DNA from: an uncultured Eisenbergiella sp.
Lineage (GTDB): Bacteria; Bacillota; Clostridia; Lachnospirales; Lachnospiraceae
Reading direction: 5' to 3'
NCBI GenBank assembly: GCA_947626725.1
Contig: CANQTI010000003.1
Location: 1 to 33,721, forward strand
Length of the DNA: 33,721 bases
Shown here: in pieces, positions 1,890 through 32,495 of the stretch
How the letters are laid out: every line of letters starts with the position of its first letter
Numbering within the stretch: the stretch's first letter is position 1
The notes under the pieces: model-generated
Told to the model about the DNA's origin: nothing
What the model saw: the letters and a program-made list of their open reading frames with translations, nothing else
Databases searched by the model: none
Program-made: the position numbers and the translations under genes

Positions 1890-2096
1890 GGTACGGACGA
1901 AGTTATACTTCGTCCGTACCGCTACTTTCCAATACGCATCGCGGATTGGAAAGGTTCCTTGTTTGGACGAAGTATAACTTCGTCCGTACCGCTACTTTCC
2001 AATACGCATCGCGGATTGGAAAGGTTCCTTGTTTGGACGAAGTATACTTCGTCCGTACCGCTACTTTCCAATGCGCATCGCGGATTGGAAAGGTTC
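1890..2096. repeat. Tandem array: three copies of a ~70-nt unit, each with two hairpin-forming palindromes
   Basis: GGACGAAGT(ata)ACTTCGTCC at 1895, 1965 and 2035 (period 70); CTTTCCAATACGCATCGCGGATTGGAAAG at 1925, 1995 and 2064. Copies nearly identical. Confidence 0.95.
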
Positions 2097-24731: not shown

Positions 24732-25846
24732 GGGATGCCTCCCTCCAGCAGCCTTCCATCCCCGTTTCGGATCTGGACGGCAAAAAAATGTCCGTCTTTC
24801 TTCCCCAGCAGGATCACTCGCTCAAATACTTTCTCCTGCTGTAGAGCAGCGTACGCCTCCTTCCGGAAAAACGCTTCACAGGAATCCGCATGCAGCGTGG
24901 CAAGCACACTGCATCCGCAGTGAACCGCATACAAAACCGCCCGAATATCCTCTGCGCCCCCCAGCTCATCTACCGCGATCGCTCCGGGCGACATGGACCG
25001 CAAAAGCATCATCATCCCATATGCCTTCGGACACGCGTCCAATACGTCCGTTCTGCTCCCCAGATCGAATTCCGGAATTCCCTGAAAGCACCCCGACAGC
25101 TCTGAGCGCTCATCCACCACTCCGACCGTCTGCCCCGGCAGACGCGCATTTCCATCGGAGACCAGCCGGATGATATCCCGCAGCAGCGTTGTTTTCCCAC
25201 AGCCTGGCGGAGAAATGAGCAGTGTATTGCAGAGTCGGCTGCCTTCATACAGCCAGGGCAGAAGTTGTCCCGCTGCCCCTTTCGCCTCATGGGGCACCCG
25301 GATATTCAGACTTCCCACATGCCGAATATTCCTGACCGTCCCCTCCGGTCCCAGGATCACCTCGCCCGCGATCCCCACCCTGACGCCTCCCGCCGCACTG
25401 ATATATCCCCTCCGCATTTCTTCTTCACAGGCGTATAGGGAATAGCCGCATATGTGCTTTACGATCGCATCCAGTTCTTTTTTCTGCAGGCGCGGCGCAT
25501 TTCCCGCATCCCGGTTCAGGCGGCCCTTCTCATCCGGATACCACTCTCCGTCACGCATGAGCAGGATGACCGGCTGCCGCGCCCGCAGCCGGATCTCCCG
25601 CAGGTCCTGCCAGGATATCGCCGCCGCTTTCCATCGCTCCCGAAACGATTCCGGGAACAGCAGCCGGATCCTGTCCATCCCATCCGTCCTGTCCCTCCTG
25701 TCCGCCCTGTCCGTCCCGTCCTTCCTGTCCGTTCTGTCTGGTCTGTCCGTCCCGTCCTTCCTGTCCGTTCTGTCCGTCCCATCCTTCCCATCCGTCCTGT
25801 CCATCCCTGTCCTCCCCTTTCTGACGGGTTCCCGTTTTCTCTCCAC
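24725..25846 (-). CDS. spoIIIAA: Stage III sporulation protein AA ATPase with N-terminal Asp/Arg/Thr repeat extension
   Basis: LLISPPGCGKTTLLRDIIRLVS Walker A; VDERSELSGCFQGIPEFDLGSRTDVLDACPKAYGMMMLLRSMSPGAIAVDELGG. GTG start at 25846 or ATG at 25804, both with SD-like sequences. Confidence 0.93.
   Translation of the reverse strand: MERKREPVRKGRTGMDRTDGKDGTDRTDRKDGTDRPDRTDRKDGTDRADRRDRTDGMDRIRLLFPESFRERWKAAAISWQDLREIRLRARQPVILLMRDGEWYPDEKGRLNRDAGNAPRLQKKELDAIVKHICGYSLYACEEEMRRGYISAAGGVRVGIAGEVILGPEGTVRNIRHVGSLNIRVPHEAKGAAGQLLPWLYEGSRLCNTLLISPPGCGKTTLLRDIIRLVSDGNARLPGQTVGVVDERSELSGCFQGIPEFDLGSRTDVLDACPKAYGMMMLLRSMSPGAIAVDELGGAEDIRAVLYAVHCGCSVLATLHADSCEAFFRKEAYAALQQEKVFERVILLGKKDGHFFAVQIRNGDGRLLEGGIPC
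25672..25812. repeat. Low-complexity minisatellite including two near-identical 36-nt units
   Basis: ctgtccgtcccgtccttcctgtccgttctgtcyggt-type unit at 25707-25742 and 25743-25778, flanked by degenerate ctgtccgtcc repeats. Confidence 0.85.
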
Positions 25847-28805: not shown

Positions 28806-30470
28806 TCATTCCTGAATGGAAGTGTCCTTCGTATATAAGCTGATGTCGCCGCTGACGGTGCTGATGGTGATCTCCCGGTCGCCGCCGTTCAAATAGATCT
28901 TCTCCGTTCCCTTCTCATCCGCGGAGCGCAGGGGAAGGTTCGATTCGAAATCTCCGCTGACCGTCCTGGTGAACAGCCGGAAACCGATATTCTGCGGAAT
29001 CCTGAGCCGACAATCCCCGGAGGTGGAGGAAAGCCTGACCTTCTGCGGCAGAAGCTCCGTCCGCAGGTCGATATCCCCGCTGACGCTGTATGCGGCCAGA
29101 CTTCCCGCCTCCGCCACGCTTCCACGGAAGCTGACATCGCCGCTGACGGTCCGCATCAGGCAGGAAAACAGATTTCCCCCCACCGCGATATCGCCGCTCC
29201 TAGTCTCCGCCCGGAAATCGCCGGTGGCAGCGGCGACGGCGATGTCCCCTCTGGAAAGCTGGATCCTGGTTCGCCCGCACACCGCGGTATCCATATGAAA
29301 ATCTCCGTTTTTGGACTGGACGGTCAGATCCGCGCACTGCAGCTTCCCGTCGATCTCCACGTCTCCGTTTGCGGTGATGACTGTCAGCTTTTCCCAGCGC
29401 TTAGCCGGGATCGTCAGCTCCACATCAGAGGCCCGCATGCCCCAGCTGAACAGCAGCGACGCGCTGACCGTCCTCCCCTGTCGGATCCGCAGGGTCCCAT
29501 CCCGCAGGACAGTCTCCAGCTCCCCGGTGTCTCCGACCAGCGTGATCTCATCCGATTCCTCCGGTGCGAGATGGATGCAGATGTCCCCATTACCCAGACG
29601 GCATTCCAGCGAATGGATCTCCCGCGCCTGAAAAGACAGCGTTCTTTGGGTGCCCGGCTTCTTTTCTCTCCCGAACGCATCTTCGGCCGCTCTGGCCTGT
29701 GCGCCCTCTTCCAGCCCTTCGGCTGTCCCGGTCTGCGCATTCTCTTCCGGCCCTTCGGCCGTTTCAGCATTCCCATCGCCCTGCGCTTCGCAGGCTGCTT
29801 TGGGCTGCATTGCCTCTTCCGGCCCGCCGGCCGTTCCGGTCTGCGCACCTTCTTCCAGCCCTTCGGCCGGCCCGGCCTGCGCACTCTCTTCCGGCTCTTC
29901 GGCCGGCCCGGCCTGTGCACTCTCTTCCGGCTCTTCGGCCGGCCCGGTCTGCGCACCCTCTCCCGACTGTCCGTTCTGCTCCGTTTCTCCGGCGGCCGCT
30001 CCCCGACCTTCGGCATAGCGCTCTTTCACCTGTCTGGACACATCCCGCACAAAATCCCAGGTACTGTCTACAGCATCCATCGTCATATCCATCGCCGCGT
30101 TGACCGCGGAGCCGATCTTTTCCCCGAGTCCTTCCAGTTCGCTTCCCCAGTCCCTGTGAAAGGAAAAATTGCACCCGCGTTCTGTCCGGCCCGTCTTCTC
30201 TTCCTCCTTCTTTTCAAAGGACGGGCCCGCTTCCTCCTGCTGCTCCTGCACCTCCCGCAGATAAGCCAGCAGTTCATCCACATCCCCCAGGCTGTCCATC
30301 GTCTGCGCAAGCGCATCGTCTTCGCCAAGTCCCTCTGCCGCAAGATCCAGATAACGCTGATAGAGATTCTCACTCAGCTCCTCGATCAGATCCATTTTCT
30401 CGTCGCTGTCCGGCACTTTAGCCAGACGTCCCGAAACCATGATCACAATTTTTGTCTCAATCCGATTCAT
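28806..30470 (-). CDS. HAAS/DUF1700-like plus DUF4097-type beta-repeat protein with internal 12-aa repeats (ORF opens at 30497; preferred start 30470)
   Basis: SDEKMDLIEELSENLYQRYLDLAAEGLGEDDALAQTMDSLGDVDELL; C-terminal repeated TVSGDISL/RSGDIAVGG/TVSGDVSF pattern; GGAGG before ATG 30470; overlaps padR stop. Confidence 0.82.
   Translation of the reverse strand: MNRIETKIVIMVSGRLAKVPDSDEKMDLIEELSENLYQRYLDLAAEGLGEDDALAQTMDSLGDVDELLAYLREVQEQQEEAGPSFEKKEEEKTGRTERGCNFSFHRDWGSELEGLGEKIGSAVNAAMDMTMDAVDSTWDFVRDVSRQVKERYAEGRGAAAGETEQNGQSGEGAQTGPAEEPEESAQAGPAEEPEESAQAGPAEGLEEGAQTGTAGGPEEAMQPKAACEAQGDGNAETAEGPEENAQTGTAEGLEEGAQARAAEDAFGREKKPGTQRTLSFQAREIHSLECRLGNGDICIHLAPEESDEITLVGDTGELETVLRDGTLRIRQGRTVSASLLFSWGMRASDVELTIPAKRWEKLTVITANGDVEIDGKLQCADLTVQSKNGDFHMDTAVCGRTRIQLSRGDIAVAAATGDFRAETRSGDIAVGGNLFSCLMRTVSGDVSFRGSVAEAGSLAAYSVSGDIDLRTELLPQKVRLSSTSGDCRLRIPQNIGFRLFTRTVSGDFESNLPLRSADEKGTEKIYLNGGDREITISTVSGDISLYTKDTSIQE
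29690..29985. repeat. Imperfect 36-nt (12-aa) coding tandem repeats, EESAQAGPAEEP-type
   Basis: cccggcctgcgcactctcttccggctcttcggccgg-type units repeated around 29872-29945, with diverged copies on both sides. Confidence 0.85.
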
Positions 30471-32157: not shown

Positions 32158-32181
32158 TTCCTGATCCCCTCCCCCATTTAT

Positions 32182-32418
32182 CATGTCCTTTCGGACATGA
32201 TGCCTCCGGCGGATCTGATGCGCCTGGCGGCGCGATAAAATAGCGCTGCAGCTATTTTACCATGTCCCTCCGGACATGATGCCTCCGGCGGATCTGATGC
32301 GCCTGGCGGCGCGGTAAAATAGCCGCAAGGCTATTTTACCATGTCCCTCCGGACATGATGCCTCCGGCGGATCTGATGCGCCTGGCGGCGCGATAAAATA
32401 GCGCTGCGGCTATTTTAT
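32182..32418. repeat. Tandem array: three copies of an exactly 79-nt unit with three palindromes each
   Basis: Units start at 32182, 32261 and 32340 (catgtcc); each has CATGTCCnnnnGGACATG, GCGCCtggcGGCGC and TAAAATAGC...GCTATTTTA. Confidence 0.96.
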
Positions 32419-32495
32419 CATACACAGTACAGACCGGACAATAGGCAGGTGCCGGGAAGGCCGGAAAATCTCTGGCGGAAAACGGCAAAGCCTGT

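Follow-up and report, generated by a model that had tools for sequence, protein, structure and literature searches.

The hairpin array in the leader of a DtxR/MntR-type regulator gene of an uncultured Eisenbergiella sp. belongs to a family of short, folded repeats in gut Lachnospiraceae that had not been catalogued before. Members of this family covary in their stems, start at a fixed distance from -10 boxes or stop codons, are gained and decay between species, and show no tie to any one gene function. On balance, we regard the array as a recent gain of this dispersed repeat by the leader, where it is probably co-transcribed with the gene and acts in cis as RNA.

The hairpin array and its leader

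The window analysed here is a stretch of 33,721 nucleotides from contig 3 of a 69%-complete, short-read MAG of 234 contigs. Three units of ~70 nt with two hairpins apiece occupy positions 1890-2103, flanked by a promoter upstream and by the ribosome-binding site of a DtxR/MntR-type gene downstream. The preliminary description had claimed a triplicate double-hairpin array at this site, and its units, spacing and palindromes were all recovered by Tandem Repeats Finder (period 70, 2.9 copies, 97% matches over 1895-2096) and by a repeat search, which placed the starts of the 70-nt copies at 1895, 1965 and 2034/2035, with spacings of 70 and 69. The folding energy of the array lies 10.6 s.d. below that of dinucleotide shuffles. 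The promoter claimed with it, TTGAAC-17-TATAAT (1858-1886, with the -10 box at 1881-1886), is likewise present and ends 3 nt upstream of 1890. These three nucleotides (GAA, 1887-1889) form the left boundary of the element, and the same gap between the -10 box and the first hairpin recurs at nearly all promoter-type sites described below.

All features of the leader lie on the + strand. Unit 1 opens with a perfect 14-bp hairpin, H1 or the leading 'cap' (GGTACGGACGAAGT-TAT-ACTTCGTCCGTACC; 1890-1920), followed by the conserved linker GCTA (1921-1924), a second hairpin, H2 (CTTTCCAATACGC-ATC-GCGGATTGGAAAG; 1925-1953), and the conserved tail GTTCCTT (1954-1960). H2 forms 12 of 13 pairs and is common to all three copies as CTTTCCAAT(A/G)CGC-atc-GCGGATTGGAAAG. 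Unit 2 comprises a truncated H1 with the loop ATA instead of TAT (1965-1990), and a linker, H2 and tail (1991-2030, with H2 at 1995-2023). Unit 3 carries a truncated H1 (2035-2059), made up of the perfect 20-bp palindrome GGACGAAGTATACTTCGTCC (2035-2054) and an unpaired GTACC, and then a linker, H2 (2064-2092) and the diverged tail GTTCTGT (2060-2099). The truncation, which had been overlooked, consists in the loss of the outer GGTAC of the left arm of H1 from copies 2 and 3, so that only copy 1 forms the full hairpin against the linker. Several positions distinguish the three copies from one another.

The ribosome-binding site GGAGGG (2111-2116) is followed by the metalloregulator gene (2125-2502), whose 125-aa product matches the Pfam domains Fe_dep_repress and Fe_dep_repr_C, while the nearest NCBIfam model, MntR, is matched below its cut-off. 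The predicted accessibility of the ribosome-binding site in the window is equal with or without the array; simple translational masking is therefore not expected, and sequestration of this site by the array was rejected.

Further repeats occur elsewhere in the window. Upstream of a DNA polymerase IV gene, a second three-copy array of 79-bp hairpin units (32177-32421, minus strand) shows a compensatory change within the array, from GATAAAATAGC/GCTATTTTATC to GGTAAAATAGCC/GGCTATTTTACC in the middle unit; it has no match to the models of the 1890-2103 family. Tandem repeats with 36/72-bp periods lie inside long open reading frames at 25669-25816 and 29681-29965.

The regulator gene in other members of the genus

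A DtxR/MntR-type regulator is encoded in all 13 genomes of the genus, 12 of them from other species. The array was absent from every dtxR upstream region read in these other members, a reading that covered all but one genome (G008), where the gene lies at a contig end. A TTGAA...TATACT-like promoter is recognisable upstream of many of the array-less orthologues, which supports the earlier placement of the array within the 5' leader. Since the array stands between a shared promoter and the ribosome-binding site and is absent in relatives, it was most simply gained in the source lineage.

Discovery and distribution of the repeat family

The first lead to a wider family was a weak blastn match in another species (G011), a single-copy homologue in the nrdDG leader. 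This homologue reads TATAATGAAGG, another H1, CCGCTA, CTTTaCAATtCaC-gaa-GtGaATTGtAAAG and GTTCCTT: its unpaired letters are those of the window, and its stems are compensated. A covariance model of H2 identified some 110 units, spread over about 60 loci, in 9 of the 13 genus genomes, which supports the option of an amplified mobile repeat given in the preliminary description, at least as far as dispersal goes. With a refined model, matches at E<=0.001 were obtained in 9 of 397 Lachnospiraceae genomes, from 8 genera, and none in the other 388, which serve as a negative control. The carriers in a strict pattern scan were all Lachnospiraceae/Eubacteriales MAGs, namely S26M_St_34, RGIG5494 (sheep colon), RGIG4638 (roe deer rectum) and UBA3821. 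The collected set comprises 140 units in 84 arrays, from Eisenbergiella and seven other Lachnospiraceae genera.

Other searches returned little. Strict DNA patterns of the window H2 had no match in viral and genome collections, phage and plasmid blastn gave no match or chance matches alone, and a relaxed pattern found 11 matches in viral contigs, by estimate no more than chance. A pattern search across the family produced only chance-like matches outside the window, because the stems vary. The R2 search of 246 genomes drawn from the order found no match beyond the element's own genome, an absence that is weak evidence, the filter scoring few candidates per genome. Rfam gave no match to the window at gathering score and, in a lax search of 20 loci, nothing above threshold; weak, sub-threshold matches such as nqrA-II on the nrdD leader were rejected as hairpin-driven. 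No description of the repeat family was found in open-access papers, and an earlier unlabelled listing may exist in the supplements of structured-RNA screens (PMC8040213).

Two rpoA-rplQ intergenic regions (L192 and L214) contain tandem units that are divergent, their linkers reading GTGCTAC or GCGCTGC and their loops being of the CTAAT type; these units are probably distant members of the family; the L192 unit scores only 21 bits. In many other Lachnospiraceae genera (L193-L221), the same intergenic region holds a recurrent motif before rplQ resembling CAGTAAGACCGAAGAAGCGTG...GTTCCACAAATGGAGG, apparently a different conserved element.

Anatomy and covariation of the units

Across the 140 units and 84 arrays, the consensus plan is AA - H1 - CGCTA - H2 - GGTTCC. 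The arrays are single (45), double (24), triple (13) or quadruple (2), with a period of 42-73, and all multi-unit arrays run head-to-tail. One to four copies of the module of linker, H2 and tail follow a single H1 at the head of the array; the H2 module has evidently been amplified in tandem in these arrays, whose variable number of internal modules is that expected for BOX-like modular repeats. A proper H1 is found at 90% of array starts (n=81) versus 13% of later units (n=53), and random positions reach a similar H1 score (16 or more) in 2%.

H1 is a near-perfect palindrome with arms of 9-20 bp. Over 45 distinct sequences its pairs are 98% Watson-Crick, and each locus has a sequence of its own, grouped by lineage into no more than loose subfamilies. 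H2 is a 13-bp hairpin in which the outer CTT/AAG pairs are nearly invariant and the inner pairs covary: changes on both sides occur at 11 of 13 pairs, 94.6% of cells are paired, and the covariation (0.380) exceeds both that of shuffles (0.143 +/- 0.008) and that of slid controls (0.119 at most). The structural part of the suggestion that the array is a structured regulatory RNA is upheld by this covariation. The most conserved parts are the unpaired CGCTA and GGTTCC and the outer pairs of H2. Two resemblances were considered and dropped: the loxP-like look of ATAACTTCGT in H1, as H1 is not conserved, and the nut boxA-like look of CGCTACTT, whose CTT is paired in H2.

Placement at promoters and stop codons

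The position of the element is precise. At promoter-type sites, the gap between the -10 box and H1 measures exactly 3 nt for 32 of 34 exact boxes, and a -35-like hexamer usually stands 17 nt upstream of the -10 box. At stop-type sites, a stop codon closing a long sense-strand ORF was found in 36 cases, and in 29 of these H1 starts 0-2 nt past it. These two types account for 63 of 80 arrays; the remaining 17 are unclassified, several of them at contig ends. The element is in sense orientation in both types. According to the preliminary description, a dispersed repeat without association with gene starts would refute a leader role. Half of this condition applies: the copies are scattered over the genomes, yet they keep closely to transcript starts or to stop codons.

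Stop-type sites include ssb-rpsR in 10 of 12 genus genomes (absent in G001 and G005), rpoA-rplQ in four genera, where only a minority of sites carry the element, and pgk-tpiA in two genera, as well as ilvC, glmS, a purF-like gene, rpsA and rubrerythrin. The promoter type is represented at nrdD (two species), pheA, phosphofructokinase, phosphoglucomutase, a Mur ligase, and IclR and ABC genes. No common pathway was found among the neighbour genes of either type, and hence not the association with one pathway by which a riboswitch or class-specific cis-regulatory RNA is recognised. The array is not specific to the DtxR/MntR-type gene, and, since the same element stands beside many unrelated genes, neither a dtxR-specific riboswitch or regulatory RNA nor a metal operator is supported.

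Gain, decay and compensation between species

Orthologous sites allow the element to be followed between species. At ssb-rpsR, H1 is Watson-Crick in 97 of 100 cells and has undergone compensated pair changes, pair 3 for example being A-T, G-C or C-G. In the pheA leader, an intact two-unit array is present in one genome (G006), decayed remnants in two others (G000, L236; G002, L235), and no array behind the same promoter region in seven more. Such intact, decayed and empty leaders imply that arrays are acquired, multiplied and degraded, the behaviour to be expected when selection on a repeat family is weak or local.

Action as RNA or as DNA

The pairs of H2 speak to the level at which the element is selected. 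G.U exceeds A.C by 37 to 9 (p=4e-5), the direction predicted by selection on the sense-strand RNA, although the excess lies mostly at pair 7 (12 versus 5 without it) and a covariance search itself favours G.U. H1 shows no such preference (5 versus 4). Furthermore, at several stop-type sites H1 resembles an intrinsic terminator, and several of these sites face a convergent gene; at such sites, H2 would mostly be left untranscribed from the upstream gene. Given the concentration of the excess at pair 7, the search bias, the unbiased H1 and the terminator-like H1, an RNA reading is favoured, not proven.

The arrays are probably co-transcribed with their flanking genes, a view to which their position after conserved promoters lends indirect support. 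Behind a promoter, an array would lend the transcript a 5' end that folds very stably; behind a stop codon, it would place a folded segment between the genes of an operon or at the 3' terminus. The effect would most likely fall on mRNA stability, processing or termination, as has been proposed for REP/BIME and BOX elements, and not on metal sensing. Our best reading is of a REP/BOX-like, transcribed, cis-acting repeat family that may alter mRNA ends.

Selfish miniature mobile DNA of the REP/RAYT or IS200/IS605 kind, in which a Y1 transposase recognises hairpins in single-stranded DNA and effects on RNA are incidental, seems to us unlikely, though by no means negligible. A dispersed hairpin element that is gained and lost between species, with an H1 free of strand bias, would suit such an origin. 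On the reverse strand, the linker GCTAC, kept in most of 109 distinct H2 units and with its last base within H2, also gives GTAGC at the base of H1, a motif that may correspond to the tag of GTAG-tagged REPs, and the apical triloop of H2 is mostly GNA (70 of 116), as in GCGAAGC, which is an unusually stable DNA mini-hairpin. However, the Y1 transposase domain (PF01797) is absent from G000, G002, G004 and G010, all of them genomes with several or many units of the element; a Y1 transposase was rejected as the mover, its presence being uncorrelated with the element, and no transposase accounting for the spread was found. Moreover, H1 varies in sequence within the family, the arrays are head-to-tail only, unlike GTAG REPs (PMC3733652), and the element sits at -10 boxes and stop codons with a precision far beyond what tolerated intergenic insertion would produce.

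The repeats may also constitute a regulatory RNA. As a speculative proposal, put forward with little confidence, they could represent an undescribed class of cis-acting RNA module, with a hypervariable, fully paired cap hairpin set 3 nt past the -10 box or immediately behind a stop codon and a repeated CGCTA-H2-GGTTCC that would recruit a dedicated factor to transcript starts and intercistronic regions, spreading and amplifying in Lachnospiraceae genomes. A regulatory RNA class bound by a dedicated protein or acting on RNA polymerase, for example as a put- or nut-like antiterminator, with H1 as a cap and CGCTA-H2-GGTTCC as the repeated recognition module, we judge decidedly doubtful. The conservation of the unpaired motifs and outer H2 pairs, the strictly defined start at transcript 5' ends or right past stop codons, and the recurrence of operon sites across genera (rpoA-rplQ, pgk-tpiA, ilvC) all argue for it; yet the gene set shares no function, the distribution is patchy, extending to a minority of rpoA-rplQ sites, copies have decayed in close relatives, and a candidate protein was not found.

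The possibility raised earlier of a repeated operator, whose palindromes the DtxR/MntR-type regulator would bind for autoregulation, is very improbable: the palindromes do sit between the metalloregulator gene and its promoter, but they are missing from the dtxR upstream regions read in other genus members, the same element lies beside many unrelated genes (nrdD, rubredoxin, pheA, ssb-rpsR, pgk-tpiA and others), and H1 differs at every locus, leaving no shared operator sequence. A local assembly artefact or the chance expansion of one palindrome, conceivable for a 70-nt repeat in a short-read MAG contig, is scarcely credible, as the array units differ mutually and homologous arrays occur in independent assemblies of other species and genera, which refutes it as an explanation of the family.

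Comparison with known elements and significance

The nearest analogues of the family are BOX repeats and REP/BIME elements. The BOX elements of Streptococcus pneumoniae, described together with RUP and SPRITE, are intergenic, structured and modular, their internal modules varying in tandem copy number; they are predicted to fold on transcription, form 5' or 3' extensions of operons, and are thought to influence the expression of co-transcribed genes (PMC3049150). The Lachnospiraceae element shares a Firmicutes host and the character of an intergenic, modular, structured repeat, a likeness claimed at the level of kind only. It differs in architecture, in being fixed to the nucleotide from a -10 box or stop codon, in an orientation that follows the gene, and in stems that are hypervariable but compensated.

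With GTAG REP/BIME elements, the family has in common short extragenic hairpins, often clustered, at gene 3' ends and between operon genes, and perhaps a reverse-strand GTAG-like tetranucleotide at the stem foot. GTAG-tagged REPs are reported outside Firmicutes, and head-tail dimers are rare among them (PMC3733652). In contrast to GTAG REP/RAYT systems, the present family belongs to Firmicutes, lacks a common stem sequence, has many copies directly after promoters, and forms head-to-tail arrays throughout, with no predominance of head-head or tail-tail dimers; membership in REP fails on stem conservation, dimer orientation and transposase.

Put/nut RNA antiterminators offer a possible parallel, with a pair of hairpins and a short conserved linker close to where the transcript begins. 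The Lachnospiraceae element differs in having no phage context, unrelated host genes, tandem copies and sites after stop codons. With Rfam families, including ribosomal leaders and the L17 downstream element, the repeat shares its setting in so far as some of its sites lie in rpoA-rplQ and ssb-rpsR intergenic regions; it differs in that it also occurs at non-ribosomal genes and had no above-threshold Rfam match in the window or the 20 loci searched.

Lachnospiraceae are abundant gut bacteria, for which no comparable family of structured interspersed repeats was found in the sources searched. The family poses the question of how a repeat comes to start exactly 3 nt past a -10 box or immediately behind a stop codon. 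If confirmed, it would provide natural experiments, in which the same promoter precedes an intact, a decayed or no array, on how folded 5' and post-stop segments affect the fate of mRNA.
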